Shown piece after piece: positions 5,097 to 28,320 of a stretch of 64,000 bases of DNA. Under the pieces are notes generated by a model. That model ran no database searches. It was not told where the DNA came from and was given only the letters and a program-made list of their open reading frames with translations. This DNA comes from Joostella atrarenae (lineage in GTDB: Bacteria; Bacteroidota; Bacteroidia; Flavobacteriales; Flavobacteriaceae): NCBI RefSeq assembly GCF_021764745.1, contig NZ_JAETXX010000007.1, positions 124,001 to 188,000 on the forward strand. The letters are read 5' to 3'. How positions within the stretch are numbered: the first letter of the stretch is position 1; every line of letters starts with the position of its first letter. Made by a program: the position numbers and the translations under genes.

Positions 5097-5132
5097 ATTA
5101 TTAATTATAATTATATTACAAATATAACTAAA

Positions 5133-5819: not shown

Positions 5820-5844
5820 CTGAATTAGTTTTAAATTTATCTAA

Positions 5845-6180: not shown

Positions 6181-6249
6181 ACTATAATTATTTATTTAAA
6201 AGCTTGGAGCAAACAAAAATCAATCTTATCATTTAGGTTATAAACAAGA

Positions 6250-6353
6250 AAAGACTTAAGGAGAGAATATTCATAAGAGATTTAACCCTCTCATAAAGCA
6301 AAATAAAAAAACCTACTAATTTTAATTTATTATCCTTCATTCCTTAAGTCTTT
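6250..6353. repeat. 13-bp inverted repeat with 78-nt spacer
   Basis: AAAGACTTAAGGA at 6250-6262 is the exact reverse complement of TCCTTAAGTCTTT at 6341-6353. Found between the two response-regulator-like genes. Function unknown. Confidence 0.65.
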
Positions 6354-6465
6354 AACAATAAACCAACCTAAAGCCTACACTCTACAAAAGATTTCATAGA
6401 GCTTTAACTCGGTACAAATGTAGGACAGGTAAGCTATGAATTAAAAAAAACAACTACAGTCTTAT

Positions 6466-6507
6466 TTCGTAAAGTGATACATTAATTTTAATGTATCACT
6501 TTACGAA
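6466..6507. repeat. Perfect 42-bp palindrome (20-bp arms, 2-nt centre)
   Basis: Arms at 6466-6485 and 6488-6507 match perfectly around a TT centre (arm core CGTAAAGTGATACATTAA). It lies about 90 bp after the stop of the NarL-type regulator. There is no U-run right after it, so either an unusual terminator/RNA stabiliser or a protein-binding palindrome is possible. Confidence 0.8.
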
Positions 6508-6598
6508 GGCATGTTTTTATAAGGTTTTTAAATAAGAAAGCATCTACAAAGTTTACTTGTAAATGCTGCTATATAAGAGACTCGCTCTTGAAGAAACT

Positions 6599-7231: not shown

Positions 7232-7409
7232 ATCAACAAAGTCCTTTCTTTACAGTTTAATTATTACAGCTTTTATATCACTTTCAATAAAGCTGTATTT
7301 ATATTCATTTTATGGTAAAACTTTACAAATCTAAGACATATTAAATTGATAAAGTCTTTATTTCTTAATTATTATACGTGAAATTTCTTCAAATTAATTA
7401 AACACTATC

Positions 7410-8743: not shown

Positions 8744-8749
8744 CTTTTG

Positions 8750-8823
8750 CGGTCTGGACGGGATTCGAACCCGCGACCCCATGCGTGACAGGCATGTATT
8801 CTAACCAGCTGAACTACCAGACC
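8750..8823 (-). tRNA. tRNA-Asp (anticodon GTC), first copy
   Basis: The minus strand reads as a complete cloverleaf: acceptor GGTCTGG / CCAGACC, D-arm AGTTCAGCTGGTTAGAA, anticodon loop CTGTCAC with anticodon GTC, T-arm GCGGGTTCGAATCCCGT. CCA is not encoded. A promoter lies 17 nt upstream and a terminator just downstream. Confidence 0.95.
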
Positions 8824-8839
8824 TTTTTTAATGCGAGTG

Positions 8840-8870
8840 CAAATATACACTCTATTATTTATTATGCAAA
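8840..8870 (-). promoter_or_regulatory. Bacteroidota promoter of tRNA-Asp (first copy)
   Basis: On the minus strand TTTG (8867-8870) is followed after 19 nt by TATATTTG (8840-8847), matching the Bacteroidota consensus TTTG-N19-TAnnTTTG, close upstream of the tRNA 5' end. Confidence 0.75.
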
Positions 8871-8897
8871 CCTTTTCTTTTAAATAATAGTAGAAAC

Positions 8898-8938
8898 AAA
8901 AAAAGCCTTCAACAGCTCGAAAAAATCGAGAGGAAAGC
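8898..8938 (-). terminator. Probable leftward terminator between tRNA copies
   Basis: On the minus strand a stem GCTTTC / GAAGGC (8933-8938 with 8905-8910, one G-U pair) and inner CTCGA / TCGAG stem are followed by seven Us. No gene is seen just upstream, so it may belong to a lost tRNA or RNA gene. Confidence 0.45.
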
Positions 8939-9013
8939 CTTTCATTGGTTTAACTACTAAACCTCCGATAATATTCTCATATCATCGAACAACACAACTA
9001 TTTTTATGCGAAA

Positions 9014-9040
9014 AAAGCTCCAATTCTCATTGAAGCTTTT
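9014..9040 (-). terminator. Terminator following the truncated tRNA-Asp
   Basis: Near-identical to the terminator of the first tRNA-Asp (AAAGCTTCAAT ... ATTGGAGCTTTTTT on the minus strand). It shows that the 3' fragment at 9050-9071 was once a full tRNA-Asp gene. Confidence 0.7.
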
Positions 9041-9049
9041 TGCTTTTCG

Positions 9050-9071
9050 CGGTCTGGACGGGATTCGAACC
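9050..9071 (-). repeat. tRNA-Asp 3' fragment, putative left attachment site of the PUL island
   Basis: The 22 nt from the T-loop to the discriminator base are identical to the 3' end of tRNA-Asp (TTCGAATCCCGTCCAGACCG on the minus strand, plus two bases), then identity stops abruptly. A complete tRNA-Asp lies about 19 kb to the right at 28247-28320. This is the usual mark of an island integrated into a tRNA 3' end. Confidence 0.75.
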
Positions 9072-9495
9072 TTACTTCTTTAGACCTTATAGAATAAGGC
9101 CCTATTAACTTGTCACTAATCGTGTTGACGATTCGTGAACTCATATATGATCTAAAAAATGTCAAAATAACTTCGGTGCAAATGTATAATTATTGTTGTT
9201 ACCAATCAAGACAAAAATTGATTATTTATTTGGTCGGATTTTTGAAGTTTTGGAAGGTCAATTTTCTAAATGAAGTTAAACCTTTTTATTCTGATTTTCC
9301 AATTTTAAATAGTACTCTCTATAAGAACTAGTCAAACTTTCAAAAACAAAATAAAATGGAACTACAAAGTATTGCAAAGTATGGAAGGATAGATTTTAGA
9401 TTTGGATATTATAAGCATGTGTGGTCTAAATCCTCTCTAGGTTAATATAGACACTAATTACATATTTACTGAGATAGAGTTTGTCTTTTAAAGAA
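9072..9495. other. Island left end, no credible gene
   Basis: Holds an imperfect dyad (9111-9140), a hairpin ACCTTAT/ATAAGGC (about 9084-9102), an orphan leftward promoter-like site (9179-9210) and AT-rich sequence. A 73-codon frame at 9110-9331 has no protein-like features. Confidence 0.6.
9179..9210 (-). promoter_or_regulatory. Orphan tRNA-type promoter at the island left end
   Basis: On the minus strand CTTG (9207-9210), a 20-nt spacer and TACATTTGCACCG (core 9179-9186) resemble the promoters of the two intact tRNA-Asp genes (TATATTTGCACTCGC). It points left towards the tRNA fragment, but no intact RNA gene follows. Confidence 0.45.
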
Positions 9496-10530
9496 TTATT
9501 CATGAAAATTTCCAGCCAAACCAATGAGCCCAACCGAAATGAACATTAAAACCAAACCTATCCCTAACAGTATTTTAGCCTTCATTCCCACTCCTTTCCA
9601 TTCTTTTAAATAGAGTCCCCAAAATAGACTGAATATGATGATGAAAGTCATATGCAGGGTCCATGATGCATAGTCCAATTCTCCCATAAGACTTCCTCCC
9701 ATTCCGTAAAAAAAGAATTGAAGGTACCAAATAATACCGGCTGAAGAGCTTAAAAGGTAATTAACCCTCAAGGAAGACCCTTCTTTTTTAACAGTGTATT
9801 CCTTATAGCTTTTATTTTTAAAATTTAGAATCAAACACCATACAAAATTAGTAATAAAACCTCCCCAAAGTACAACTACCAAAACTGCGTTGTTTTGCCA
9901 TAGTTCAGGAACACCATTTGCCACCGCAATAGCCGCTATAGGTTTTCCGGCCGCGAGGGCAAAAGACATGCAAGCACTTAAAAGACCGGAAAAGAAAGCT
10001 ACAAACAATCCTTTTCTATGGTTAAAGTCCCTGTTTCCTTTATGTGCTCCCTGATTTTGTTCTTTTTCTTTTCCCGCAATGCCATAGACCACAATCCCGA
10101 ATAGACAAACTAATACACCAGACAATACCATTTGACCCGATGATGAATGGATTATGGCTCCAATACTACCGTCAAAAATCATTGGAGTTAAAGTACCAAA
10201 GGTAGCTGTAAAGCCCAAAACAACGGCGTAGCCAATAGAGATTCCCAAATATCGCATACTCAAACCAAAGGTCAGTCCTCCTAATCCCCAAAGCAGCCCA
10301 AAAAAAAATGTAAGTACCAATACTTTTGCTGGAGCTTGAAAAATGATATCCATTAAATTAGGGATAAATAAATAACCCATAACTAATGGCATAATAAGCC
10401 ATGCAGCAACTCCACTTACTAACCAATAGCTTTCCCAAGACCAGTTCTTCACCTGTTTAAAGGGAACATAAAAACTGGCTGCAGCTACACCACCAATTGC
10501 GTGATAAAAAATACCAGAAGGAAAAGGCAT
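9496..10530 (-). CDS. rhaT: L-rhamnose/proton symporter RhaT
   Basis: An inner-membrane symporter of the drug/metabolite superfamily that imports L-rhamnose (and related deoxysugars) with protons. The length (344) equals that of E. coli RhaT and the conserved blocks agree: FYHAIGGVAAASFYVPFKQV with VKNWSWESYW at the N-terminus, LTFGLSMRYLGISIGYAVVL near 85-105, SAGIIWYLQFFFYGMG near 265-280 and LHMTFIIIFSLFWGLYLKEW near the C-terminus. About ten membrane segments are visible. It is the second gene of a leftward pair with the isomerase (72-nt gap), both divergent from the AraC regulator. It indicates that the island's glycan releases rhamnose. Confidence 0.9.
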   Translation of the reverse strand: MPFPSGIFYHAIGGVAAASFYVPFKQVKNWSWESYWLVSGVAAWLIMPLVMGYLFIPNLMDIIFQAPAKVLVLTFFFGLLWGLGGLTFGLSMRYLGISIGYAVVLGFTATFGTLTPMIFDGSIGAIIHSSSGQMVLSGVLVCLFGIVVYGIAGKEKEQNQGAHKGNRDFNHRKGLFVAFFSGLLSACMSFALAAGKPIAAIAVANGVPELWQNNAVLVVVLWGGFITNFVWCLILNFKNKSYKEYTVKKEGSSLRVNYLLSSSAGIIWYLQFFFYGMGGSLMGELDYASWTLHMTFIIIFSLFWGLYLKEWKGVGMKAKILLGIGLVLMFISVGLIGLAGNFHE

Positions 10531-10602
10531 ATTGAATTTTTTTAATTACTAACTATTAAACATCGTAGATCGACATTTAAATATTCTAGAGAGGTTGAAA
10601 TA

Positions 10603-12030
10603 TTAACAGACCTGTACAACTTCAATATTGAGAAGCTGACCTAACTTTTCGATTTTTGAAGTTATATCCCCAGTACCGATTGCGCAATGATGTGCCGGAC
10701 CATAACTGTTCCAAGTTTCCATAAACTCTATTGCACTTATAGGGAACTTATAACGGCTATTGGTATTTCCTATTTCCAAAATAGGACCAGAAACAGATTC
10801 CGCACTGGCAGTGAGCAACATTAATTTCGCATTTGGCTTTTGAACCACCGAAAGAAGGGTTACAGGTCCATTTTTAACTGACATTTCAACACTTAGACCC
10901 CTGCTAACTTTCCCATGGTAAACCTCCAGCGGCTTTACACTTACTTTGCCTTCAGAAATACGAATATGGCCTGGCCCGTCGTGTCCCATTAAAACAACAT
11001 CATCTACATGATCCATTCCGTAATATTCAGTAAAAGAACCTACCACGCCAAAAGTATCCAGAACCTTCATAGCCTGTACATTTTTAACCTCGTATTCCCC
11101 AGCTACAGGCACATTATTTCCACTTAATATAGAATTACCCAAAATAATTGATGCTATAGTTTCTTCATTTTCCGTGCCGGTGCCTTTATGATAATAAGCA
11201 ATTGAGCCTAGTTTATAATCATGCACAATTTGTTCCAAAGCCAAAGATGTCTTTGCTGCACTAACCAAATCCTCATGCCGGCAATCCTTCTGAACATCGA
11301 AAGTTGATTTAAACAATATAATTCGTTCAGCAATAGCTTCTTCAGAAATAAATCTACGAATTTGAGTGATTAAATCAACTTCCAATATTTCAAAATGACC
11401 TCCAAACTGTATTAGTTGCTGTGTAAGATCAGTATAAATATCAAGCATCCCACCATAATAGTTACCAAATAATCCTAACCTATTATTAGACATGATAAAT
11501 TTGACATGCGCAGCCTCAACCCATTCAGAGATTTCCTTACGCACATGATCGGAATCCCCTTTAAGAACACCTGTAATTTGGGCATACTGAAAACCAGCTC
11601 TTTTAATAACACTTATCATTTCAGGCACTGGACAGGCAGCACAATGTGCAAGCCATTCACCGGTCATTTTTGTTCTATCATTTAACTGATTAAAAGATTT
11701 ATAATCAATTTGAGAAAGCGGCGAAAGATTTAAGAGAACAACTGGCACAGGACATTTTTGAAGCACAGTCAAAACTGTAGATGATAGTGCATAAGTAGTA
11801 ACATGTATAAATAGGAGATCTACTTCCATCTGCCGAAAACGTCTTCCGGCTTCAACCGCTTTCTCATAATTATCGACCATGCCAAGATTGTGCAAATTGA
11901 TTTTGGGACTCTCAATCATTTCTTCTACAATCCCCATATAACCATTTAATCGATCGAGCAATCCATCAAATTGATCCCAATAAGTGTCTAGTCCTACCCC
12001 AAAAAGTCCTACTGATAATTTTTGTGCCAT
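10603..12030 (-). CDS. L-arabinose/L-fucose isomerase family protein
   Basis: Cytoplasmic aldose-ketose isomerase with the AraA fold. The residues that bind metal and catalyse in E. coli AraA have counterparts: Glu in VPVAGEYE, Glu in SFTEYYGM, His in LMGHDGPGH and His in GPAHHCA near the C-terminus. Overall sequence is distant from classical AraA, and 475 residues is close to its usual size. Next to rhaT it most likely converts the imported sugar (rhamnose, fucose or arabinose) to its ketose; which one cannot be read from sequence. First gene of the pair with rhaT, divergent from the AraC regulator with an 86-bp shared promoter region. Confidence 0.8.
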   Translation of the reverse strand: MAQKLSVGLFGVGLDTYWDQFDGLLDRLNGYMGIVEEMIESPKINLHNLGMVDNYEKAVEAGRRFRQMEVDLLFIHVTTYALSSTVLTVLQKCPVPVVLLNLSPLSQIDYKSFNQLNDRTKMTGEWLAHCAACPVPEMISVIKRAGFQYAQITGVLKGDSDHVRKEISEWVEAAHVKFIMSNNRLGLFGNYYGGMLDIYTDLTQQLIQFGGHFEILEVDLITQIRRFISEEAIAERIILFKSTFDVQKDCRHEDLVSAAKTSLALEQIVHDYKLGSIAYYHKGTGTENEETIASIILGNSILSGNNVPVAGEYEVKNVQAMKVLDTFGVVGSFTEYYGMDHVDDVVLMGHDGPGHIRISEGKVSVKPLEVYHGKVSRGLSVEMSVKNGPVTLLSVVQKPNAKLMLLTASAESVSGPILEIGNTNSRYKFPISAIEFMETWNSYGPAHHCAIGTGDITSKIEKLGQLLNIEVVQVC

Positions 12031-12116
12031 GGTTTATTCATTACTGTTTTTTCAAAACTACTGGACATTTAACTCATATAAAATATGTAAATTGACAATT
12101 TCTTGCACAATTTGAT

Positions 12117-13010
12117 ATGAAATCTAAGTTTTACAGGGAATATGTTTCCATTCAACCCAATTGGTTCAAATGGGGTTTACACATCAAAAACGCGGGGCAC
12201 ACTCATGTGCCACCATATGCTACCTATCCGGATATGGAGCATCCCACAGAATACTATTTTGAATGGGAGGAGGGGAGGAAATTATCTGAATACCAATTAA
12301 TCTTAATCACATCAGGATCAGGATATTATGAGTCTGAATCCTGCTCCTGCACCAAGGTTATGGAAGGCTCTATCATTCTGCTGTTTAAAGGGGAGTGGCA
12401 CCGCTACAGACCAGACAAGAGTACTGGGTGGAAAGAATACTGGGTCGGTTTTGATGGAGATCTAGCGCAGTTGATAATGGAGCGATCTTTATTGAAGCAG
12501 ACAAATCCAGTAATTAAAATTAATGACCTTAAAAGTATCATGAATGCCATGCTTAAAATTTTTGATTGGTTAGAATCTCAAAAACTTTATGGAAGTAACT
12601 TGATCCCTAGTCAAATTATGGTTATCCTGGCTCAATTGGAAAACGATAGCGTATCTGGAAAATATGAAAATTCGCTTGAGATGGAAATCATTCAAAAGAT
12701 ACAGCTTTCAATACTGGATAACTTCACTGGAGCGATAGATTTCGAAAAGTTGTCTCAAACCCACAATATTAGTTATTCCTGGATGCGTAAAAAATTCAGG
12801 GAGATTATCGGAATGCCTCCTCACAGCTATCTCCTACAACTCCGTATTCAAAAAGCTAGGGATCTTCTTATCTTTTCAAATCATCCTATTAAACAAATTG
12901 CCATAGAATGTGGATTTTCTTCTGCATATTATTTTTCAAGATATTTCAAACTACATTGCTCGTATTCTCCATCACAATACCGTAAAAAAAACGTATTGGG
13001 TAAAGAGTGA
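12117..13010 (+). CDS. AraC family transcriptional regulator
   Basis: An N-terminal cupin-like sugar-binding domain (about residues 20-160, with IILLFKGEWHRYRPDKSTGW) is followed by the AraC double-HTH domain (about 190-295). The second HTH has the family signature IKQIAIECGFSSAYYFSRYF and SPSQYR. It stands divergent to the isomerase-rhaT pair and upstream of the GH43 gene, as expected for the local activator responding to a monosaccharide. No hybrid two-component sensor or anti-sigma pair is present, so it is the only visible PUL regulator. Confidence 0.9.
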   Translation: MKSKFYREYVSIQPNWFKWGLHIKNAGHTHVPPYATYPDMEHPTEYYFEWEEGRKLSEYQLILITSGSGYYESESCSCTKVMEGSIILLFKGEWHRYRPDKSTGWKEYWVGFDGDLAQLIMERSLLKQTNPVIKINDLKSIMNAMLKIFDWLESQKLYGSNLIPSQIMVILAQLENDSVSGKYENSLEMEIIQKIQLSILDNFTGAIDFEKLSQTHNISYSWMRKKFREIIGMPPHSYLLQLRIQKARDLLIFSNHPIKQIAIECGFSSAYYFSRYFKLHCSYSPSQYRKKNVLGKE

Positions 13011-13296
13011 ATTTAATTTTAAATCATCCAGATATAACTATGAAAAATCCATCTCAATCAAATTCATCTTAAACTAAAAAAATTGCGAATGCCATCCTTA
13101 AGTAAAGTGCTGATATATTTTTATAACAGATATTTGAACTCCTAAATCTAAAAATTAGACTATCAAGCACCTTTGCAGTATAGTACAGGATGGAAGAAAT
13201 TAAGCTATTTATATTTTAGCCAAATGCTTTTTAAGAAGATGTAAATCCCTTCTAAGCAACTTCAAATTTTTCAGTTTAATTTCAAAAATCTAATCG
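13011..13296. other. Leader region of the GH43 gene
   Basis: No gene is seen. It holds one copy of the PUL-wide motif CAGTATAGTACAGGATG at 13176-13192, about 105 bp upstream of the GH43 ATG. Confidence 0.6.
13176..13192 (+). promoter_or_regulatory. Candidate PUL operator (copy 1)
   Basis: CAGTATAGTACAGGATG matches the right arm of the GH2/susC intergenic inverted repeat (CAGCACAGTACAGGATA, 21939-21955) at 14 of 17 positions, including all of AGTACAGGAT. Confidence 0.5.
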
Positions 13297-14766
13297 ATGA
13301 AGAAAAAAATAAACTTAATGCTCCATTTAACACTAATAATGTTTTTAACAGGGTGCACCCAAAACGATTTAAAAGAAAAAGCTAAAAATAGTATTTCGAT
13401 TTCAAATGTAGAACCGCGAAAAACTATTGATGATAATATCGTTGACGCTCATGATGGGAGGATTATAAACTTTAATGATAAATTTTATTGGTACGGAACT
13501 TCTTACGGAAAAACTAATGGTTTTACCACAGCTAATAAATACATGTGTTACAGCTCGAAGGACTTGATAAATTGGGAAGAGCAGGGCGCCCTGATACCCA
13601 ATCAACCAGAAGGTGTTTATTACAGACCTCATGTTATTTATAATAAAAAAACTAAGAAATATGTGCTTTGGTATAATTGGTACCCAAAACTATGGAATGG
13701 AAAATTTGGGGTAGCTGTAAGCGATACACCGCAAGGTCCTTTTAAAATTATTAACGACGATGTACAAATGTCGCGATCCGAGGCAGGACTGGGTGATTTT
13801 GGACTTTTTGTAGATGGCGACGGCACCGCTTACATAAGCTACAACACCATAAATAATCACCAAGTTTCCATTGAAAAATTAGACGATAGCTATACAGGCT
13901 CTACTATGAAAAACGGTGGAATTATCGCCCAGCACATGGAAGCAGGTTCTCAATTTAAACACAACAATAAATACTACTTATTAACTGATTACACTTGCTG
14001 TTTCTGTAATTATGGCTCTGGTGCTAGGGTTTATGTAAGTAACAACCCACTTACTGGCTATACTTTTACAGGAAACATAAACCGTTATCCTGGCAAAAAA
14101 GCCTTAATGCTGAGCGATAGTGTTTCCAGAGGTACGCAATATGAAACGTTAGAAAAAAGACCTTCTGGCTACGATGGCATCGAACTTCAACTTGAAAAGC
14201 ATACCTCTGTAAACAAAATTGAAATAAGCCTGTTTACAGGAAACCGTCCCGAAAACTGCGGAAATGTTGAAAATCCTAGAGTTCATCCTGAAATCAACAT
14301 TCCTAAATTCAGTTTCTTTACTTGGCAATTTGATAGTTGGAAACCACTTAAGGCTGAACTTTCAAGCAAGGAATCTTCCGCACTTAACGAATCCATGCGT
14401 TTTACCGTAAATATTGAAGCAGACCGAATTAAGGTTGTTCCAAAGGATTCCACCGCAACTACAGCCCTTTACATTAACGAGATTACTTTATTCAATAACC
14501 AACAAAAACTTCCGTTTAACGGTTATATCTCCCATAAAAGTATTCCACAAAAACCAATTATTCCAGCGCAACAAACCTACGTAATGAAACTAAACACAAA
14601 TGCTGGGGAAAAATTTATTTGGATGGGCGATTTATGGGGTTCTGCTTCGGATAATATAAAAGGGCACGATTATCAATACTGGAGCGCTCCTTTGAATTTT
14701 AAAGAAGATGGCACCATTTATCCATTGCAATGGACGGATTCATGGGATTACCAACCTAATAAGTAG
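13297..14766 (+). CDS. GH43-like glycoside hydrolase, lipoprotein
   Basis: A cell-surface or periplasmic lipoprotein (lipobox LTGC, Cys20) with a five-bladed beta-propeller of the GH43 type, which usually cleaves arabinose, xylose or galactose side chains with inversion. The catalytic trio can be placed: Asp in NIVDAHDG (residue 50 or 53), Asp167 in LGDFGLFVDGDGTAYISY and the general acid Glu215 in HMEAGSQF. The C-terminal 200 residues are a beta-sandwich (IELQLEKHTSVNKIEISLFT). A Cys-rich patch TDYTCCFCNYG is unusual. It is the only enzyme on the plus strand of the PUL, preceded by its own motif copy. Substrate not determinable. Confidence 0.8.
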   Translation: MKKKINLMLHLTLIMFLTGCTQNDLKEKAKNSISISNVEPRKTIDDNIVDAHDGRIINFNDKFYWYGTSYGKTNGFTTANKYMCYSSKDLINWEEQGALIPNQPEGVYYRPHVIYNKKTKKYVLWYNWYPKLWNGKFGVAVSDTPQGPFKIINDDVQMSRSEAGLGDFGLFVDGDGTAYISYNTINNHQVSIEKLDDSYTGSTMKNGGIIAQHMEAGSQFKHNNKYYLLTDYTCCFCNYGSGARVYVSNNPLTGYTFTGNINRYPGKKALMLSDSVSRGTQYETLEKRPSGYDGIELQLEKHTSVNKIEISLFTGNRPENCGNVENPRVHPEINIPKFSFFTWQFDSWKPLKAELSSKESSALNESMRFTVNIEADRIKVVPKDSTATTALYINEITLFNNQQKLPFNGYISHKSIPQKPIIPAQQTYVMKLNTNAGEKFIWMGDLWGSASDNIKGHDYQYWSAPLNFKEDGTIYPLQWTDSWDYQPNK

Positions 14767-14891
14767 ATCTTTCAACGTATTTGTTTTTTGGCCTGCAATA
14801 TGCTTTAAATGTATGGCAATTCCCGTTCGGTGTATTGCAAGGCCCGCTCATTGCACTGCATAAACTGTTAAATTTTCTTCTCTACAGCAAT

Positions 14892-14922
14892 AAAAAAACC
14901 CCGTGGCTGTTGCCAACGGGGT
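14892..14922 (-). terminator. Terminator of the GH2-GH78-sulfatase operon
   Basis: On the minus strand ACCCCGT paired with ACGGGGT (14916-14922 with 14898-14904), an inner GGC/GCC pairing, then seven Us. It lies 25 nt past the sulfatase stop. Confidence 0.9.
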
Positions 14923-14946
14923 ATAACAATATTTTATTATTAGAAA

Positions 14947-16386
14947 CTACTCTGCCGAAGGATTGTACTTTGTATTTGGCTTAGGAAACTTAGCACCTAG
15001 TCTTTTTAGTTCAGCTTGCATTTCATTATACATAGCTTCAGCCTTATCTCTATTCTCTTCGGAAAGATCTTTGGTTTCTCCTAAATCTTCTTCCAAATTA
15101 TACAGCTCAGATCTTTCTTCTTCATAAAAATAAACAAGCTTCCAATCCCCTTTTCTGTAGGCTGTCGCTGGCTTCCCATGTTGCGGACTGTAATGTGGTA
15201 AATGCCAAAGCAATCCTCGCTCGTTATTTTCTAGGTTAAAAATATCTATTCCTTCCGCAGGAAAATCAGTACAACCGGTTAATTTGGATAAGCTGTACAC
15301 CAAATCTTGTGCTACAACTGGCGTATTTATTTCTTTAGAAGTTAATTTATCAGGCCAAGAAACTATTAAAGGCTCTCTAATACCGCCTTCATATAGATAT
15401 CCTTTTCCGGCACGCAATGGTCCGTTATCTGTTGGTGGTGTGTGCTTGGCAAAAGCAGGTACTTCCCTTACTGAAAGTCCGCCGTTATCAGAAGTAAAAG
15501 CAATCAATGTTTTCTTATCCAAATTCTGCTCTTCAAGCATTTTAATAATTCTTCCCACGTTGATATCGATACTTTCCACCATAGCGGCATAATGAATGTT
15601 TGGAAGAATTGCTTCGGAAGTGTCCCCTCGTTTTTCAGTATACTTTTTCACCAAAGAATCTTTAGCCTCAATAGGCACATGCGGAGCATAGTAATTTAAA
15701 CTGATAAAAAACGCACTGTCTTTTTGTTTGTTAATATAATCAAGCACTTGATTGGTGAGCACATCTGTTAAATAATCTCCGTCATTGCTATTATTTTGCA
15801 ATGCAGGCTTCTCTCCCATTCTAAAAAATGGAAAAAAGAAAGAAGAAGGTAGTCCGTTGTAACTTCCCCCTACATTTACATCAAACCCTTGATGTTGAGG
15901 CTCAAATTTTCCACCACCAAGATGCCATTTCCCAAAAAAACCGGTGTTATAACCCTTTTCCTTCAATGCCTCTGCCAGCGTTTTATAATCTAAATCCAAT
16001 TGCTGACTTACAGGAGGTGTTTTTAACATCTGCTTTGGTCCGGCAGGTCTATTTCCATGAATATGCTCTGTAATATTCACCGTTATCGGGTGAAGTCCTG
16101 TCATTAAAGAAGCCCTAGAAGGACTACAAAGTGGTGCTGCAGCGTATGCATCAGTAAATTTTAATCCATTGGCAGCCAAACGGTCTAAGTTGGGTGTTTC
16201 AATGAAAGTATTTCCATAAGTCCCAAGATCGTGCCAACCCATATCATCAGCAACTATCATAATTATGTTAGGTTTACTTTCTTGAATTTCTTCAGTTGAA
16301 GATTCCCCTTTCGGAATTTCTTTACAGGAAAGAAGCATCAATGTTGCTGATAAATAATAAAAAATTGGATGTTTTAAGTAATTCAT
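14947..16386 (-). CDS. S1-family sulfatase, lipoprotein
   Basis: A type I sulfatase that removes sulfate esters from glycans. The formylglycine motif is CSPSR (Cys87-Arg91) in LCSPSRASLMTG, to be matured by an anaerobic or FGE-type enzyme encoded elsewhere. Metal-binding Asp47/Asp48 lie in IVADDMGWHD and the C-terminal metal site in AFTSDNGG. A lipobox (MLLSC, Cys21) anchors it to an outer or periplasmic membrane face. Length 479 is typical. It is the last gene of the leftward operon, 5 nt after GH78, with a terminator right behind. It shows that the substrate is sulfated, so of marine algal origin. Confidence 0.92.
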   Translation of the reverse strand: MNYLKHPIFYYLSATLMLLSCKEIPKGESSTEEIQESKPNIIMIVADDMGWHDLGTYGNTFIETPNLDRLAANGLKFTDAYAAAPLCSPSRASLMTGLHPITVNITEHIHGNRPAGPKQMLKTPPVSQQLDLDYKTLAEALKEKGYNTGFFGKWHLGGGKFEPQHQGFDVNVGGSYNGLPSSFFFPFFRMGEKPALQNNSNDGDYLTDVLTNQVLDYINKQKDSAFFISLNYYAPHVPIEAKDSLVKKYTEKRGDTSEAILPNIHYAAMVESIDINVGRIIKMLEEQNLDKKTLIAFTSDNGGLSVREVPAFAKHTPPTDNGPLRAGKGYLYEGGIREPLIVSWPDKLTSKEINTPVVAQDLVYSLSKLTGCTDFPAEGIDIFNLENNERGLLWHLPHYSPQHGKPATAYRKGDWKLVYFYEEERSELYNLEEDLGETKDLSEENRDKAEAMYNEMQAELKRLGAKFPKPNTKYNPSAE

Positions 16387-16391
16387 AGTAG

Positions 16392-21600: not shown

Positions 21601-21852
21601 TACATCGTTAGAAGAATTTTTAAAAAGAAATTTCCAGTCTCCGTTTATATTTTTTCTTCTTGACGACTCCTCTCGATTTGCTTTTAAAGCTTGATTTAAA
21701 GTGGAGTAAGAAACCGAGGTCGCTTTGGCCGGAAGTTTGTTAATTTGCGTGACATTTTGATCCAACCAGGGCTCTTTTGATTGACAAATCAAAAGAAAAT
21801 GTGTTGAGATTAAACTAATCGTCAATAGGTTCTTGTAATAAGATCTTTTCAT
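18685..21852 (-). CDS. GH2 LacZ-type beta-galactosidase, lipoprotein
   Basis: A large (1055 residues) retaining beta-galactosidase. Domain order is that of LacZ: sugar-binding jelly roll (about 60-240), immunoglobulin-like domain, TIM barrel (about 370-680) with acid/base Glu488 in SWSLGNEAGF and nucleophile Glu565 in VIWCEYAHS, then the beta-galactosidase small chain domain (about 800-1050, RAPTDNDL). A lipobox-like LLIC (Cys23) suggests membrane anchoring. It is the first gene of the GH2-GH78-sulfatase operon, divergent from susC with a shared regulatory region that has the 17-bp inverted motif. A beta-glucuronidase or other GH2 activity cannot be excluded. Confidence 0.92.
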   Translation of the reverse strand: MKRSYYKNLLTISLISTHFLLICQSKEPWLDQNVTQINKLPAKATSVSYSTLNQALKANREESSRRKNINGDWKFLFKNSSNDVPSNFFELETSDENWATLPVPSNWELHGYGKPWQRLTPQIWEDKNVPFPNIPTDYNPTGLYRKWVTLPKDWDGMQITLHIGAASSSLSVWVNGEYVGYSEDNRLPAEFDITKKLKSGENLIAFQVTQWSDGSYIEDQDHWRMSGITRDVYLDASPMVQLYDFEVRTDFDESYTNAELQIRPEIKQYERSDIDGWNLEALLYDEDNEPILDSVFQVSVKKILNEHYPQIGNRPFNNLMKRTIPSPKKWSAEQPYLYTLILALKDEKGKLIEARSQKIGFREIDISDGQFKVNGISVLLYGVNRHDWDATTGKAVTKEAMERDVKLMKQLNVNASRSSHYPNPPYWYELCNQYGIYVMDEANIESHALGSLPSNTPAFHTAFLERGINMVERDKNHPSIISWSLGNEAGFGPNHAALSAWIKEFDPTRPIHAEGAQNIYGYNWPKPEPKDRLYIDIISRMYRLMDDMIDLATQPNDTRPVIWCEYAHSQGNSTGDMQGYWDAIYKYKRLVGGFVWDWRDQLISKPSEGDKELWKYGKDFNQKLDDLLPIQKGLISADGKIKSGGWQAKYVWQRIHTEADSLQKGIFTVTNQHSRTNLDTYGVKWEITEDGTPVENGTMNAPSIATGKKGKLKISMPYVNYKEGKRYFFNIYYVLKKDELWAEKGFEIAKEQFPLVYKPLLKKEETESETEIYQLGDTLFIKQNKLEFAFNTKTGFLSGWEANGRELLKGALNPNFWRAPTDNDLAASVPKRMGVWKTIVDSLSLDSFTNYSSEKGTVVETTHVSPDKKLSLEIKYRLNSSGALKVSFTMQPSPDLPNLPRVGMQVPVAKSLSDLEWFGRGPYETYADKKSGSFIGRYKENVSDFVYYVRPQESSNKTDVYWAKLTDGKNTLLQVEAFNNAINFSVWPYTQNQLEEATRIEDLPLNNFNVLNIDYKQMGVGGDNSWSMDARPHEPFRLPANVYHYEFIFKVNTNE

Positions 21853-21884
21853 AATGCAATTCTATAATGATAAAATAAAAAGTG

Positions 21885-21955
21885 TATCCTGTACTATGCT
21901 GAATAAAACATCGTCCTAAGATTTTCCATTTCCACTAACAGCACAGTACAGGATA
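21885..21955. promoter_or_regulatory. Candidate PUL operator: inverted repeat between GH2 and susC
   Basis: TATCCTGTACTATGCTG (21885-21901) and CAGCACAGTACAGGATA (21939-21955) are inverted copies with one mismatch in 17, 37 nt apart, in the divergent promoter region. A third copy precedes the GH43 gene. Confidence 0.6.
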
Positions 21956-22070
21956 GTTTTGATTGAATTGCTAATTATAATTGCATCTATTATGAATAAT
22001 TTAAAATATTCGCTTCTATTTTATAAATATTAATAAAATATAAAGATGTTTTAAACAAAAACTAACTAAA

Positions 22071-25000
22071 ATGTTCAAAGTATTCAACAGACTCAAAGAG
22101 CGTTTACAAAAGTCCCGGAAGGTGGTGTCCTTACTTGGGATTTTTATCTTAACGACATGCTCAATTTATGCGCAGACAGCAATTAATGGTAAAGTTACGG
22201 GACCCGATGGAACCCCTCTACCGGGCGTAACAATATTTGTTAAAGGAACAACCAATGGTACACAAACCGATTTCGACGGAAATTACTCGATAAGTATTCA
22301 GAAGGAAAATGTAATTTTGACTTTTTCATATATTGGTTTCTCACCACAAGAAATACCTGTTCAAGGCAAAAATGAAATCAACATTAGCATGAAAGAAGAT
22401 GTAACGGCTTTGGAAGACGTAGTTGTGATTGGATACGGTAAAAGAAAAAGGGAGGATTTAATAGGTGCTGTATCCACAGTCGATTCAAAAAGTATTCAAG
22501 ATAAACAAGTCAATACGTTTCAAGAAGCATTAATTGGCCAAGTATCTGGAGTTCAGTTTCGGCAGAATGGAGCGCCTGATGGAGCACCACAATTAACTAT
22601 CCGGGGAGTCGCTTCACTCGGTAACAACACCCCTCTATATGTTGTGGATGGCTTTCCATTGGGAAATTCAACGGCCATTGCATCTCAAAGGGACAACTAT
22701 ATCCTAAGTGGCATTAACCCAGATGATATAGAGTCGATAAGTATCTTAAAAGATGCATCCGCAAAAGCGATCTATGGATCAAGAGCCTCCAATGGTGTGG
22801 TGATAATAACTACCAAACAAGGTAAAAAAGGTAAACCAACCTTCACTTTCGGAACAAGCCTTGGGGTTCAGTCAATTCCTGACTATGAAAAACCTGATGT
22901 CTTGAATGCTCAAGAACTCTATCAATACCAGTTGGATTTTTATGAAGATAAGGAAGCTGACAATCTACCACTTGGAGGTATTCAAATACAAAATCGAGAC
23001 TTTTTATTGGGATTAGATGATATTGACCCAGATAATGATTGGTTTGATTTAATTACTAGGGATGCTTTTGTAAAAGACTATAACATCGCCGTAAGAGGAG
23101 GCGGTGAAAATAGCAAGTATAGTGTTTCCGCCGCCTTACAAAATCGGGAAGGTACTTTAATTAACACCGGATTTAAAAGATATTCCATCAACGCCAATTT
23201 GGACATAGACATTAATAAACGCCTTCGATTTGGGATCAATTTTGCTCCTACACGCTCTGTTGCTACTGGCGGTAGAACGGATGCTGGGGCCAATAATTTT
23301 GACATTTTCAACGCGGTAAGCTTATCGGCTTGGACAGATCCTACAGCTCCACTTTATGATGACCAAGGTATGCTTACGGGCGTTACAGATGGGAATCTAT
23401 TATTTAGAAGTCGAAATATCAACCCAGTGACGCTTTTAACAGAAAGAGTCGATGAAAGAGTTTCCAACCAATTGCGTATGGGTAGCTTTGTTGAATACGA
23501 TATCTTAGAAAATTTAACGGCTAAAACTTTTGGAACCCTGCAGTATATTGACAGATACAATCGTCAGTTTCAACCTTCCCGTTTCCCTGGGGACAATTTG
23601 AATCCAAGTTTATTAGGAACTCAAATGGCTACTGCTCAGGTATTCGACCAAAATAACTTTAACTGGGTATGGGAAAACACACTGAATTTTTCTAAAACGT
23701 TGGGTAAACATGATATAGATGCTCTTGTAGGATTTACCATGGAAAAACGTCAAGCAACCTCTTCCTTGGTTCGTTCCACAAATTTAGCTGATGAAACTAT
23801 ACAATTGCCAAGTGCTGCAAATTCAGTAGAGCCAACGGATTTTGAAGGTAATTCACAAACAGATTCTAATGCATTGATTTCAATGATAGCAAGATTAAAT
23901 TATGCATATGATAATAGATATTACCTCACAGCAACCATAAGACGGGATGGCTCGTCAAGATTTGGTGAAGGCACACGTAATGGTAATTTTCCTTCTATAG
24001 CTGCTGCTTGGAGAATCAGTAATGAAAAATTCTTTGAGTCCTTGAAACCAACTATTTCAGACTTTAAAATTGAAGGAGGTTTTGGAATAAGTGGAAACAA
24101 TGGATTAGGAAATTACGAATCCCAAGGTAGTATCGCTATTGGTCAGGATTATATTTTTGGAGGACAAAATGCTCCTGGAGTTGCTGTAGATGGACTTCCT
24201 AATCTTTTGGCAAAATGGGAAGAAACCGAAGAAACAAATTTCGGGATAGATTTGGGGCTTTTTAACAATAGGGTGTACATCAGTGTGGATTACTATAATA
24301 TTAGTTCGGTAGACTTTCTCGCTTTACAGCCTTTACCGACCACAAGTGGATTCGACAATGTACGTGCTAATATAGGGGAAATAAATAATGAAGGGTTTGA
24401 GATTGATTTCAAAGTGGAAATTTTAAGGGATACCCCTGTAAAATGGAGCACTAACTTTAACTTTTCCAAAAACAAAAATAAAGTTATTGACCTAGTACAA
24501 GAAGAAGGCTTTTTCTATCCGGCAGGTAGTTTCCTAGCAGGTATTAATATTACAGAAGTTAGGGAAGGAGAATCCATAGGGCTCTTCAGGGGACTTAAAG
24601 TTACAGGTCTGTTCACGGAAGAGGACTTGAACGATCCTGATGTCCCAAAATATCCGGATGCCATTGTAGGATCTTTGAAGTTTGAAGATGTGCCAACTGT
24701 AGATACAGATGGTGATGGAATCCCCGATGAAGGTGATGGTGTTTTAAACACCTTGGATGCGACTATAATTGGTGATTCAAATCCAGATTTCATATTTGGT
24801 ATGTCCCATCAAATTTATTGGAACAATTTTGATCTCAGTTTAACTTTAGATGGGGCCTTTGGAGGAGATATTTTTTACGGACAAAACCAATTTTTAGGAA
24901 ACCAAGATGATGGACAATTTAATATAGATCGTAGATTATTGGAGAGATTTAGACCTGGTGATGATCCTACGACAAAAGAAATACCGGGTATCGGAAGCAA

Positions 25001-25289
25001 TAGCAGTCGTCAATTCTTTAGAAATCCAAACTCTTTATCTATAAAAGATGGAAGTTACCTATGGGTTAGAAATATCACATTTGGCTATACTTTTGACGAA
25101 AGTTTAATAAAATACTTTAAAAATGCAAGAGTTTATGCGAGTATTCAAAATCCGTTTTTATTTACAAAATATGAATTTGGTAGCCCCACTGTTAACAGAG
25201 CGGCAGACAATGCATTGGTAAGAAATGTGGATTATGGATCATACCCAATTTCACAAGTGTTAACTTTAGGATTTAATGTAACTTTTTAA
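22071..25289 (+). CDS. SusC-like TonB-dependent outer-membrane transporter
   Basis: Imports oligosaccharides through the outer membrane with energy from TonB. After a signal peptide (GIFILTTCSIYAQ) come a carboxypeptidase-D-like domain (AINGKVTGPDGTPLPGVTIF, about 35-115), the TonB box region (LEDVVVIGYGK), a plug domain (about 125-240, LYVVDGFPLG, ISILKDASAKAIYGSRASNG) and a 22-strand barrel ending in VLTLGFNVTF. Length 1072 is typical. It is followed after 4 nt by its SusD partner. Transcribed divergently from the enzyme operon, it is most likely under the same regulator. Confidence 0.96.
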   Translation: MFKVFNRLKERLQKSRKVVSLLGIFILTTCSIYAQTAINGKVTGPDGTPLPGVTIFVKGTTNGTQTDFDGNYSISIQKENVILTFSYIGFSPQEIPVQGKNEINISMKEDVTALEDVVVIGYGKRKREDLIGAVSTVDSKSIQDKQVNTFQEALIGQVSGVQFRQNGAPDGAPQLTIRGVASLGNNTPLYVVDGFPLGNSTAIASQRDNYILSGINPDDIESISILKDASAKAIYGSRASNGVVIITTKQGKKGKPTFTFGTSLGVQSIPDYEKPDVLNAQELYQYQLDFYEDKEADNLPLGGIQIQNRDFLLGLDDIDPDNDWFDLITRDAFVKDYNIAVRGGGENSKYSVSAALQNREGTLINTGFKRYSINANLDIDINKRLRFGINFAPTRSVATGGRTDAGANNFDIFNAVSLSAWTDPTAPLYDDQGMLTGVTDGNLLFRSRNINPVTLLTERVDERVSNQLRMGSFVEYDILENLTAKTFGTLQYIDRYNRQFQPSRFPGDNLNPSLLGTQMATAQVFDQNNFNWVWENTLNFSKTLGKHDIDALVGFTMEKRQATSSLVRSTNLADETIQLPSAANSVEPTDFEGNSQTDSNALISMIARLNYAYDNRYYLTATIRRDGSSRFGEGTRNGNFPSIAAAWRISNEKFFESLKPTISDFKIEGGFGISGNNGLGNYESQGSIAIGQDYIFGGQNAPGVAVDGLPNLLAKWEETEETNFGIDLGLFNNRVYISVDYYNISSVDFLALQPLPTTSGFDNVRANIGEINNEGFEIDFKVEILRDTPVKWSTNFNFSKNKNKVIDLVQEEGFFYPAGSFLAGINITEVREGESIGLFRGLKVTGLFTEEDLNDPDVPKYPDAIVGSLKFEDVPTVDTDGDGIPDEGDGVLNTLDATIIGDSNPDFIFGMSHQIYWNNFDLSLTLDGAFGGDIFYGQNQFLGNQDDGQFNIDRRLLERFRPGDDPTTKEIPGIGSNSSRQFFRNPNSLSIKDGSYLWVRNITFGYTFDESLIKYFKNARVYASIQNPFLFTKYEFGSPTVNRAADNALVRNVDYGSYPISQVLTLGFNVTF

Positions 25290-25293
25290 AATT

Positions 25294-26763
25294 ATGAAAA
25301 ATTTAAAAACAACTATAATTTTTGCGATTTCCATTATCCTTTTTGTAGGATGTAATGACTTTTTGGATGAATCGCCAGAAGCATTTAGAACTCCACAATC
25401 GTTTTATAAAACTGAAAGTGAAATTGACCAAGCAGTTGCTGGAGTCTACAGAACCAATCGAGTGCTGTACAATAATCAAACCCAACTAAGGTTTGGTGAA
25501 ACCAGATCAGACAATACGAATATAGAAATCACAGGGGATGCTGGGGGTGTAAATGATGATCAACTGAATGAATTCACCATGGACGCCACAAACGGAAATC
25601 TTTTGACGTATTGGAATACAAATTACGAAGGAATATCTAGAGCCAATTTCGTCTTAGCAAATATAGAAAGTGTTGAATTCTTCAATGAAGATGATAAGAA
25701 TTTTAGAATTGGAGAACTTTTGTTTTTTAGAGCTATGTATCATTTCAATTTAACCCAGATTTTTGGTGATATCCCCTATGTCATAGAGCCAGGTGAAAAT
25801 CCAGATCAAATTCTGTCAGAAGAATTTCTAGTGCGCGATCCACAAGCGGAGGTTTACTCGAATATTGAACAGGATGTGCTTACTGCCATTGGACTCTTGC
25901 CAAATCCACAAAATCTATCCAGCGAAGATATAGGAAGGTCCACCAAAGGAGCCGCCTTGATGTTACAGGCAAAAGTGTTTATGGCACAACAAAAATACCC
26001 TCAAGCCATATCTCCCTTGGAAAGAATACAAACACTAGGCTATCAATTACTTCCAAACTATGCGGACGTTTTTGGCACTAAAAATAATAAAGAAGGCATC
26101 TTTGAAGTTCAATACGATCAATCGTTAGGACAAAGTTCTAATTTCTTCACCAATTTTGTTCCCTTCGTAAGTGAAGAAGACATTTTAGGAACTGGAGCAA
26201 CACCTAATAATCGTGGAAATCAGTTTCGCCCAACTGATGATTTGATTGAATTATATGCTGAAGAAGACCAAAGAAAAGCTCAAAATATTTCCATTTACAC
26301 CGATGACAATGGGGATCAATTTCAATGGGGTAGCAAATATGCCTTTCCTTTTGTAATTCCAGGAGAGCAAAATATAAATTGGCAAATGTACCGTTATGCA
26401 GATGCTCTATTAATGCTAGCCGAATGCTATGAAAAGACCGGAAGCGGAGACCCTATTCCTCTCTTATTGCAAATAAGAACCAGGGCAGGACTTGATAATC
26501 CAAATTTGAGTCCGAATGAACTTGGTGATCTCGAAAAGGCAATCTCAGACGAAAGAAGAAGAGAACTTGTTTTTGAAGGCCATAGATATTTTGATCTACT
26601 AAGAACTGGTAAATTACAGGAAGTGATGACAGCACATGGCGAAGACCAAATACAAAAAGGTTTGACCGTAACAGGAAATCCTTATCAAAATATACGTACT
26701 CTATTTGGGATTCCGCAAGCTCAGGTCGATCAATTTGGATTTCAACAGAATGAAGGATGGTAA
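25294..26763 (+). CDS. SusD/RagB-family glycan-binding lipoprotein
   Basis: Surface lipoprotein that caps the SusC barrel and binds the glycan. Lipobox FVGC in the first 20 residues, SusD N-terminal helices (NDFLDESPEAFRTPQSFYKT), TPR-like middle part and the C-terminal SusD signature (YADALLMLAECYEKTG, LLQIRTRAG, RRRELVFEGHRYFDLLRTGK). Length 489 is normal and the C-terminus seems complete (NEGW). No SusE/F-like or surface glycan-binding protein follows; instead an IS element begins 63 nt after the stop. Confidence 0.95.
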   Translation: MKNLKTTIIFAISIILFVGCNDFLDESPEAFRTPQSFYKTESEIDQAVAGVYRTNRVLYNNQTQLRFGETRSDNTNIEITGDAGGVNDDQLNEFTMDATNGNLLTYWNTNYEGISRANFVLANIESVEFFNEDDKNFRIGELLFFRAMYHFNLTQIFGDIPYVIEPGENPDQILSEEFLVRDPQAEVYSNIEQDVLTAIGLLPNPQNLSSEDIGRSTKGAALMLQAKVFMAQQKYPQAISPLERIQTLGYQLLPNYADVFGTKNNKEGIFEVQYDQSLGQSSNFFTNFVPFVSEEDILGTGATPNNRGNQFRPTDDLIELYAEEDQRKAQNISIYTDDNGDQFQWGSKYAFPFVIPGEQNINWQMYRYADALLMLAECYEKTGSGDPIPLLLQIRTRAGLDNPNLSPNELGDLEKAISDERRRELVFEGHRYFDLLRTGKLQEVMTAHGEDQIQKGLTVTGNPYQNIRTLFGIPQAQVDQFGFQQNEGW

Positions 26764-26894
26764 ATTAAACTTTGAATACTCCCACAATACGATTGATTGT
26801 CCAGATTTTGAAACGAACATAAATTTGGACTTGCTATATTTGACTAGACAGTAAGAAAGGAGTTTATATATTTATAAACTTAAAAAAAATAATA

Positions 26895-27212
26895 ATGTCA
26901 AAAGCACGAAATTTTTACACCAAAGAATTTAAACAAAAAGCTGTAGAGCTTAGTTATGCAAAAGGTAGTTTAAAACAAACTTGTAAAGATCTATATATTT
27001 CCTTTTCATCTTTATCTAGATGGCGTCGTGAATTAAAACACTATGGAGATAAGAATAGTTTTCCAGGAAAAGGAAACTTAAAATTAACAGATCAACAGCG
27101 CGAGATTATAGCCTTGAAGAAAGAATTACAGGATGCTCATTTAGAGAATGAAATATTAAAAAAGACAGTGAGCATCTTCTCCAAGAGCGACAAGAAAAAT
27201 ATAAATTTATAA
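26895..27212 (+). CDS. IS3-family transposase OrfA (HTH subunit)
   Basis: A 105-residue DNA-binding subunit: KARNFYTKEFKQKAVELSYA with an HTH (LKQTCKDLYISFSSLSRWRRE), then a leucine-zipper-like coiled coil (IALKKELQDAHLENEILKKT). The heptamer A AAA AAG at 27158-27164 is in frame at the end of the zipper, just where IS3 elements shift to the -1 frame to make the OrfAB transposase. The -1 frame is open from there into orfB. Confidence 0.92.
   Translation: MSKARNFYTKEFKQKAVELSYAKGSLKQTCKDLYISFSSLSRWRRELKHYGDKNSFPGKGNLKLTDQQREIIALKKELQDAHLENEILKKTVSIFSKSDKKNINL
27158..27164 (+). promoter_or_regulatory. Programmed -1 frameshift site (A AAA AAG)
   Basis: The codons in the OrfA frame are TTA AAA AAG, so the heptamer has the correct register for slipping. 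The -1 frame downstream (KDSEHLLQERQEKYKFIKYH) continues without a stop into OrfB. Confidence 0.75.
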
Positions 27213-27223
27213 AATATCATAGA

Positions 27224-28078
27224 TTGAAATTTCCTGTTGAGAAGATGTGTAATGTCCTAAAAATAAGTAGGAGTAGTTATTATAATTGGCTAAAATGTGG
27301 TCCATCAAAACATTGGTTAGCTAATGAGCGTATCATGTTTTTTATACAAAAGGTGTTTAAAGAAAGCTACGAGAGTTATGGAGCTCCCAGAATAAAAAGA
27401 GCATTAGAAAAATATGGCTATTTTGTTTCTAGGAGAAGGATAAGTAAGCTAATGAAATTATTAGGTTTACTAGTAAGACGTTCTTATAAATTTAGAGCAT
27501 TAACCGATTCGAATCATAAATATATAGTGGCTCCCAATATATTGAATCAGAACTTTAAGGTTGATAGAAAAAATCAAGTATGGGTATCTGATATGACATA
27601 CATTGCTACAAAACAAGGCTGAATGTACTTAACTGTAATTATAGATTTATTCAATAGAAAGGTAGTAGGATGGTCTTTTAGTAAGAACCTAACCACAAAA
27701 AATACCATTATTCCTGCATGGAAAATGGCTGTTAATAGAAATCAAATCACGAAAAAATTAATATTTCATACCGATAGATGTTCTCAATATGCTAGTGGAC
27801 AATTTACAGATTTAATTAAATCTTATAAAGGTTTAATTAAGCAATCTATGAGTCGTAAGGGCAATTGCTGGGATAATGCTGTCGCAGAATCTTTCTTTAA
27901 ATCTTTAAAAGTAGAATGGATCTATAAATATCAATACCAAACTAGATCTAATGCAAAATTATCTGTTTTTAAATGGATAGAAACTTGGTATAATAGGAAA
28001 AGATTACACTCAGCTTTAGGATTAAAATCTATTGAAGAATTTGAAACAGATATGTACAATCAAAAGCTAGCAGCATAA
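27224..28078 (+). pseudogene. IS3-family transposase OrfB, interrupted by a nonsense codon
   Basis: DDE integrase-type subunit: HTH-like start (KMCNVLKISRSSYYNWLK), first Asp in VWVSDMTYI, second in FHTDRCSQY, Glu in NAVAESFFKSLKVEW. A TGA at 27620-27622 splits the frame after IATKQG; relatives have Trp (TGG) here, so a single G-to-A change explains it. The reading frame stays the same on both sides. The second motif also has Cys where DRGSQY is usual. With the core split and motif altered, the element is probably inactive unless the stop is read through. Confidence 0.85.
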
Positions 28079-28116
28079 TCTCTTTTCTCTTTGTCCAGTT
28101 TTTTGTTGCAAGTCCA

Positions 28117-28246
28117 AAAAATAACTGTTGACGATTTGTGAACTTTTAAAGTTAAATATAATAACTTTAAAAATATGCCTAAAAACGACAAAACCCTGCT
28201 AATCATATAATTAACAGGGTTTTGATTCTAATTGTTTTCTTAAAAG
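28117..28246. other. Island right end with 19-bp repeat
   Basis: Contains TGTTGACGATTTGTGAACT (28126-28144), which matches 18 of 19 bases of 9123-9141 at the left end in direct orientation, an inverted repeat AACTTTAAAG/CTTTAAA-like stretch, and the island-type terminator of the tRNA. Confidence 0.5.
28190..28223 (-). terminator. Terminator of tRNA-Asp (right copy)
   Basis: AAAACCCTG / CAGGGTTTT stem with an AAT/ATT inner pair, U-rich on the minus strand. Different from the terminators of the other two tRNA-Asp copies, as expected if it was brought by the island. Confidence 0.75.
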
Positions 28247-28320
28247 CGGTCTGGACGGGATTCGAACCCGCGACCCCATGCGTGACAGGCATGTATTCTA
28301 ACCAGCTGAACTACCAGACC
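28247..28320 (-). tRNA. tRNA-Asp (anticodon GTC), right copy
   Basis: Identical over the 74-nt gene to the copy at 8750-8823. It marks the right border of the PUL island; its 3' end is the presumed crossover site. Confidence 0.95.

Follow-up and report, generated by a model that had tools for sequence, protein, structure and literature searches.

A polysaccharide utilization locus at tRNA-Asp in Joostella atrarenae as a probable CIME-like deletion remnant of an integrative and conjugative element

Here, we describe an island of 19,197 bp in a 64,000-nucleotide stretch of the Joostella atrarenae genome (the window, to which coordinates refer unless a contig is given; it lies on contig C67 of a 3.99-Mb, 71-contig assembly and contains 0 unknown bases), in which a polysaccharide utilization locus (PUL) and one insertion sequence (IS) of the IS3 family are enclosed between a fragment of a tRNA-Asp gene and an intact tRNA-Asp gene. 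The island is most probably (we put the probability at about 0.88) a deletion remnant of a tRNA-Asp-family integrative and conjugative element (ICE), resembling the cis-mobilizable elements (CIMEs), which PMC5704250 defines as having lost their integration and transfer genes while keeping both attachment sites, attL and attR. An earlier note on this DNA had already pointed to an island bounded by tRNA-Asp, which the ARAGORN tRNA predictions, the copies of the attachment core and the unit they delimit bear out; it had pictured a compact PUL moving alone, and for this the remnant of a larger ICE is the better description.

The boundaries of the island, and the sequences just inside them on which the interpretation rests, are as follows.

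8749-8823, minus strand: intact tRNA-Asp copy 1, outside the island (ARAGORN)
9011-9048, minus strand: ancestral terminator of tRNA-Asp copy 2, left beside the fragment (repeat family D4 and joined-flank comparison)
9049-9071, minus strand: attL core, a 23-nt tRNA-Asp 3' end identical to 28246-28268 (sequence comparison)
9124-9140, plus strand: GTTGACGATTCGTGAAC, presumed integrase arm site, 54 nt from an 18-nt core match (motif search)
28116-28245, plus strand: integrase-proximal end of a tRNA-Asp ICE, integrase gene missing (87% to G138, 86% to G054 and 76% to Galbibacter orientalis, tRNA start included)
28127-28143, plus strand: GTTGACGATTTGTGAAC, presumed integrase arm site, 122 nt from an 18-nt core match (motif search)
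28190-28224, minus strand: hairpin 3' of tRNA-Asp, element-borne and kept in ICE near ends; presumed terminator
28246-28320, minus strand: intact tRNA-Asp copy 2, with the attR core at 28246-28268 (ARAGORN and core comparison)

The unit is measured between the attL core and intact tRNA-Asp copy 2. The sequence GGTCTGGACGGGATTCGAACC occurs three times in the window with up to 3 mismatches (against a mean of 0.00 in 100 shuffles), and a 20-nt form of the core, with up to 2 mismatches, recurs at just the same three places in the whole 3.99-Mb genome. The GC content of the island is 0.370, set between flanks of 0.304 on the left and 0.334 on the right, with the IS at 0.294. Nine PUL genes and the single IS3 element make up its content, as the earlier note had it, and the absence of an integrase noticed there extends to the transfer genes, neither having been found within 9049-28245 by a Pfam scan of the nine large open reading frames (ORFs) and the three IS ORFs or by homology searches.

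What the site looks like when uninterrupted can be read from seven Galbibacter genomes, that of the window included, in a genus to which G. orientalis (DSM 19592), G. marinus, G. mesophilus and G. pacificus belong. In all seven, tRNA-Asp adjoins a DUF58 gene at the equivalent place; five have a single tRNA-Asp there, and G. orientalis has a tandem pair spaced 296 bp from start to start. Joining the window flanks without the island gives the tandem arrangement of G. orientalis, with 8745-9071 aligning at 93% over 328 nt and the ancestral terminator retained at the left fragment. The empty site that had been proposed as a check thus exists in a close relative, as does the tandem of tRNA-Asp genes suggested as the target; of the left end, described before as a 22-nt tRNA-Asp 3' end with its ancestral terminator, the terminator stands and the length needs correction, the core being 23 nt. 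No nucleotide match to 9072-28115 was found in 20 kb around the site in the six other Galbibacter genomes, and the right end of the island, 28116-28245, is matched in G. orientalis alone among these six loci. Since the joined flanks give the G. orientalis tandem and the PUL is unmatched at the site in relatives, the PUL is an insertion into tRNA-Asp copy 2: what belonged to the host, its terminator and 3' end, stayed behind on the left, and on the right the gene received a new 3' end together with a new terminator. The earlier note had named two findings that would speak against an island, namely presence of the PUL at this site in all close relatives with no tRNA fragment, or a fragment elsewhere in the genome without the PUL; neither was seen, the relatives having no match to the PUL at the site and the core occurring at just three genomic places. 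Many paralogues came up when SusC was searched for across the genus, the best from another Galbibacter being at 45%, and they were not used as evidence of the same PUL.

Other features of this neighbourhood are recorded for their own sake. Directly downstream of the tRNA-Asp terminator, 8880-9010 on the minus strand is a conserved non-coding block with two predicted hairpins and a T-run, aligned in 8 sequences from Galbibacter, Neptunitalea and Pustulibacterium and without a match in Rfam; it may be an undescribed small RNA, with weak covariation (change on both sides in 1 of 29 pairs). In Neptunitalea chrysea (locus L040, 11138-16771) two tRNA-Asp copies stand 5.5 kb apart, without the end motif described below, and in a related locus, L037, 339 bp apart from start to start, so the L040 spacing is perhaps another insertion into the same tandem.

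Both ends of the island carry the sequence organization of an ICE. The motif GTTGACGATTYGTGAMC, presumably an integrase arm site, lies inward of each end, at 54 nt from the fragment and 122 nt from the intact tRNA-Asp, and in the whole genome, with up to 2 mismatches, it has two sites, both of them island ends (reversed control, 1). In G. orientalis a tyrosine integrase (PF13102, PF00589 and Arm-DNA-bind_5) comes after the right-end sequence; relatives of this integrase occur, at E<=1e-90, in 132 of 397 genomes of the family (genomes are denoted by G numbers). Among 30 integrase loci examined (L105-L134) the nearest tRNA is Asp in 14, Pro in 7, Arg in 5, Lys in 3 and none in 1, and the form GTTGACGATTTGTGA[AC]C, with up to 1 mismatch and some 120 bp from the tRNA, is present at 14/14 of the tRNA-Asp loci. 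The far ends of such ICEs have the same core, with up to 3 differences, and then the motif, and ARAGORN found no tRNA at the far ends submitted to it. The motif-core spacing on the near, integrase side is 122 nt in the window and 123-124 nt in 16 other near ends; on the far side it is 54 nt in the window, 54-55 nt in 13 others and 49 nt in G212. The window near end is 87% identical to that of G138 over 155 nt, and its far end 75-76% identical to those of G382, G167 and G054 over 142-151 nt, which makes the G138/G054/G382/G167 subgroup the nearest to the window ends. The terminator that had been called alien at the right tRNA-Asp belongs to this conserved end of the ICE family. One end in G382 (C7:3929, L135) has the near-end sequence, with the motif at a spacing of 123 nt, and then a core that is no intact tRNA, with a partial integrase match adjoining; it is perhaps an accretion junction.

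Full-length members of the family are far larger than the island, with core-to-core lengths of 51 (G278), 54 (G383), 54 (G162), 59 (G220), 75 (G138), 98 (G130) and 136 kb (G054). Six with both ends on one contig were fetched (G220, G162, G383, G130, G054 and G138; G278 was left out), and every one carries an integrase, MobB, MobC, TraG, TraK, TraM and TraN; at E<=1e-3 nothing in the window matches any of their Mob or Tra proteins. G303, G326, G145, G399, G382 and G167, with core copies on different contigs, and G332 and G091, with one core copy each, were not counted as full elements. The gene order in G054 runs attL, catabolic and PUL cargo, traN to traG, more cargo, mobC/mobB, parB, int and attR, the cargo between attL and the tra genes including sulfatases and members of families GH2, GH3 and GH28 of the glycoside hydrolases (GH); starting from an order of this kind, a single deletion from the PUL to the integrase-side end yields the order of the window. 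In G138, SusC/SusD, GH26 and alpha-galactosidase genes adjoin the integrase. The G054 element (C27:285,547-422,034) is itself of note as a large, 136-kb catabolic ICE at tRNA-Asp, with its transfer genes and an extended series of sulfatase, GH2, GH3, GH28 and SusC-type genes.

In the window, the place of the integrase is taken by the IS.

~26826-28116, plus strand: IS3-family element; terminal repeats imperfect, position of the ends uncertain by 1-2 bp (repeats and ORF scan)
26895-27212: IS3 OrfA
27224-28078: IS3 OrfB, broken by a stop codon in frame

Homology to ICE near ends starts at 28115-28117, so that the edge of the IS is the breakpoint, 10 bp from the motif; the gap from the susD end to the IS is 62 bp. 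The proposal that the IS had replaced the integrase gains support from this, given that homology to the integrase-side end stops at the IS edge and that G212 shows the same arrangement. One copy of the IS was found in the assembly, whose 71 contigs could hide others, and the stop within OrfB makes it probable that the IS is not recent.

The case in G212 came from a search of the 397 genomes with an exact pattern, namely the motif, 90-118 nt and the 3' part of tRNA-Asp, which matches in 15 genomes, with no reversed-pattern match among the matches listed, and which overlooks diverged ends. An integrase lies in the stretch fetched from 13 of the 15; those without are the genome of the window and G212, two integrase-less cases being few. 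The G212 unit (C1:545,205-560,408) is 15.2 kb long and has both att ends and no integrase; its cargo comprises DsbD, a sulfatase-maturing enzyme, DUF1097 and UPF0261 proteins, a PEP-hydrolase-like protein, two sulfatases and a SusC-type TonB receptor, and the eight cargo ORFs scanned include neither a SusD nor a glycoside hydrolase. It is thus like the window island in being compact, with both att ends, an IS3 at the integrase position, no integrase and sulfatase/TonB-receptor cargo, and unlike it in its motif subtype (GTGACC), its other cargo genes and its IS3, which is 69% identical to that of the window over 1247 columns, lies in the opposite orientation and abuts the motif with its end. 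As motif subtype and cargo both differ, G212 is taken as an independent event.

The cargo has the susC/susD pair and glycan-degrading enzymes by which a PUL is recognized, and consists of the following genes.

9496-10530, minus strand: RhaT-type L-rhamnose/proton symporter
10603-12030, minus strand: sugar isomerase-like protein, with a weak L-arabinose isomerase match below curated cut-offs and no PDB match
12117-13010, plus strand: AraC-family regulator
13297-14766, plus strand: GH43, galactan 1,3-beta-galactosidases being among its solved relatives
14947-16386, minus strand: sulfatase, nearest solved relative k-carrageenan sulfatase S1_16 (9fo1)
16392-18815, minus strand: alpha-L-rhamnosidase (Bac_rhamnosid6H), solved relative rhamnosidase B; start codon uncertain, ORF overlapping the next gene
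18685-21852, minus strand: GH2 LacZ-type beta-galactosidase, with LacZ-type solved relatives
22071-25289, plus strand: SusC
25294-26763, plus strand: SusD

Together these genes probably serve to import and degrade a sulfated, rhamnose-bearing galactan, a reading of the gene families that is the least certain of those offered here. Relatives of the rhamnosidase at 53-61% identity occur in six of the 397 genomes besides our own (18 at E<=1e-120, weaker paralogues included), and partly syntenic loci were found in G195, G220, G139, G216 and G325. Three of these five (G195, G216 and G325) have rhaT and the isomerase-like gene in full. Near susCD, four (G195, G216, G220 and G325) have genes for an aldolase/dehydrogenase fusion and for a TIM-barrel isomerase, and three of the four also have an FGGY kinase there, the domains having been scanned in G195; the three genes together resemble, we presume, a pathway of L-rhamnose catabolism. 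Fusion, TIM-barrel isomerase and kinase are absent from the island, the rest of the genome not having been searched for them. The locus had been called complete, which is doubtful given that genes found near susCD in 4/5 relatives are absent from the island; from this comparison it is probably truncated.

A link between this type of PUL and this family of ICEs is provided by G325, where the partly syntenic locus starts ~1.2 kb from traN on a contig that also has traG, traK, traM, mobB, mobC and a parB. The arrangement shows that PULs of this type ride on ICEs of this family, though not that G325 and the window record the same event. No such link is claimed for G220, where the PUL lies ~35 kb outside the tRNA-Asp ICE with no further core copy.

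We propose the following history for the island. A PUL-carrying ICE with a tyrosine integrase, MobB/MobC and TraG/K/M/N would have entered the second of the tandem tRNA-Asp genes, restoring the gene by means of the identical 3' end and the terminator that it brought along, and displacing the host 3' end to 9049-9071. A later deletion, with the IS3 at its junction, would have removed everything from the susD end to 10 bp short of the integrase-side motif, taking the transfer genes, the integrase and perhaps more PUL genes; both attachment ends survive with normal sequence and spacing. The two ends, the empty site in a relative, the missing integrase and transfer genes and the IS at the junction are seen directly, whereas that the deletion was single and driven by the IS is what we infer. 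An ICE integrase acting in trans, or an ICE integrating alongside, could in principle still move the block. A resident helper was sought in the same genome with the G138 integrase at E<=1e-20; it gave five matches, the best at 49% identity, with two tRNA-Pro (one a decayed fragment), one tRNA-Ser and two without a tRNA in the stretches fetched, and no tRNA-Asp-type integrase among the five.

Several observations weigh against descent from such an ICE. We found no intact ICE that bears this very PUL. The element in G. orientalis, which matches at the near end and in its integrase, lacks a far end genome-wide (up to 2 mismatches) and has no Tra gene in the 55 kb fetched, and it was used solely as the uninterrupted site and for near-end comparison. 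The motif is present also at two tRNA-Lys and one tRNA-Arg integrase loci and is thus not specific to tRNA-Asp, and 9193-9495 finds a match in 0/12 far ends compared. The PUL of G325 runs in the opposite direction with respect to the ICE backbone, and identity between its proteins and those of the window is 39-62%, from which it follows that the two are not the same event, and the G325 contig, over 1-152 kb, has no integrase (three queries, E<=1e-15) and no tRNA. The IS shows no clear target duplication, the outcome varying with where its ends are placed, and with the ends uncertain an IS-driven deletion is not proven.

These points leave room for other accounts, of which the least improbable, though still quite unlikely, is that the compact island is a natural satellite that never had an integrase and was moved by that of a tRNA-Asp ICE in the same cell. 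The intact att ends with their normal spacing and the existence of a second compact, integrase-less island in G212 suit this, but in both islands the homology to the integrase side ends at an IS, genes near susCD in 4/5 relatives are missing, no relaxase or other mobilization protein was recognized (oriT was not searched), and the two cargoes share just distant sulfatase and SusC-type relatives, so that no common satellite backbone emerges. We give even less weight to a history in two events, in which an ICE decayed to a bare att pair that the PUL and IS then entered by recombination or transposition. It needs more steps, and it sits poorly with G054, an ICE of the same subgroup that already has catabolic cargo beside attL, and with the lack of a long direct repeat around the PUL besides the tRNA/att copies (among the 20 of 21 repeat families listed), although a probably not recent IS, with its OrfB stop, and a PUL orientation differing from that in G325 would be expected of it. 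That there is no island at all, the fragment being what decay has left of a third tRNA-Asp copy in tandem and the PUL an old resident, we consider hardly credible; tandem tRNA-Asp copies are known in several genera here, but the order of spacer and terminator, the ICE-type sequence at both ends and the lack of a match to the PUL at the site in six other Galbibacter genomes all contradict it. Descent by deletion from an ICE remains the account we prefer.

With regard to class, the island retains attL and attR, has ends derived from an ICE or integrative and mobilizable element (IME), and has lost the genes for integration and transfer, and so, judged from its sequence, fits the stated definition of a CIME. 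It has neither the integrase nor the conjugation machinery of its own that mark an ICE, nor the integrase with mobilization genes or oriT that mark an IME, no integrase or relaxase having been found and oriT not having been searched.

Elsewhere in the window, the AT-rich region to the left of tRNA-Asp copy 1 (1575-8552) encodes a tyrosine recombinase (3825-5096), a LuxR-type response regulator (6599-7231) and a Fic-domain protein (7410-8552), and is perhaps another variable region, since no nucleotide match to it was found in the six other Galbibacter site loci compared. The recombinase, which is the integrase-type gene nearest to the island, was rejected as the missing integrase, lying outside the island and having 22-29% identity over aligned stretches to tRNA-Asp ICE integrases, and also as part of a tRNA-Asp element of its own, there being no further core copy or motif in the genome. 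A Flavo-1 RNA (RF01705) lies at 54784-54887 (55.1 bits).

The island suggests how an ICE-borne polysaccharide locus can become fixed, the machinery being lost and the cargo and docking ends kept. Surveys based on integrases or type IV secretion systems are expected to overlook such islands, which the core and motif at a fixed spacing detect. As 2/15 exact integrase-side ends in the 397 genomes are integrase-less with an IS3 at nearly the same place, the route is a testable one. More speculatively, in a reading we consider rather unlikely, IS3 elements might repeatedly hit the integrase-side arm region of tRNA-Asp ICEs, adjacent deletion then leaving att-bounded catabolic cassettes excisable by any resident or incoming tRNA-Asp ICE, such that Flavobacteriaceae would swap glycan-use genes as small integrase-less cassettes as well as on whole ICEs.

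Among known systems, the CIMEs, as described in PMC5704250, share with the island a tRNA 3' end, ends homologous to those of ICEs, retained att sites and the loss of integration and transfer functions; the island differs in its Flavobacteriaceae host, its PUL cargo, the IS3 at the integrase position and the lack of a visible accretion partner. Among the papers listed from the open-access literature none dealt with a PUL-bearing CIME in Bacteroidetes, which is not to claim its absence from print. The elements of PMC7553746 likewise are of ICE type, sit at a tRNA 3' end and contain a PUL, but they are whole ICEs of 107.7 and 172.4 kb in another family, as against 19 kb, at tRNA-Asp, without integrase or conjugation genes. 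ICEs of the ICEEaIII type from Elizabethkingia and Chryseobacterium also occupy tRNA 3' ends in related bacteria, and ICEEaIII can use tRNA-Asp-GTC, while carrying resistance genes, according to PMC8694125. Set against these systems, the features that appear to be new are the cargo, the family of the host, an end signature by which such remnants can be found, and the repeated presence of an IS3 element at the integrase position.

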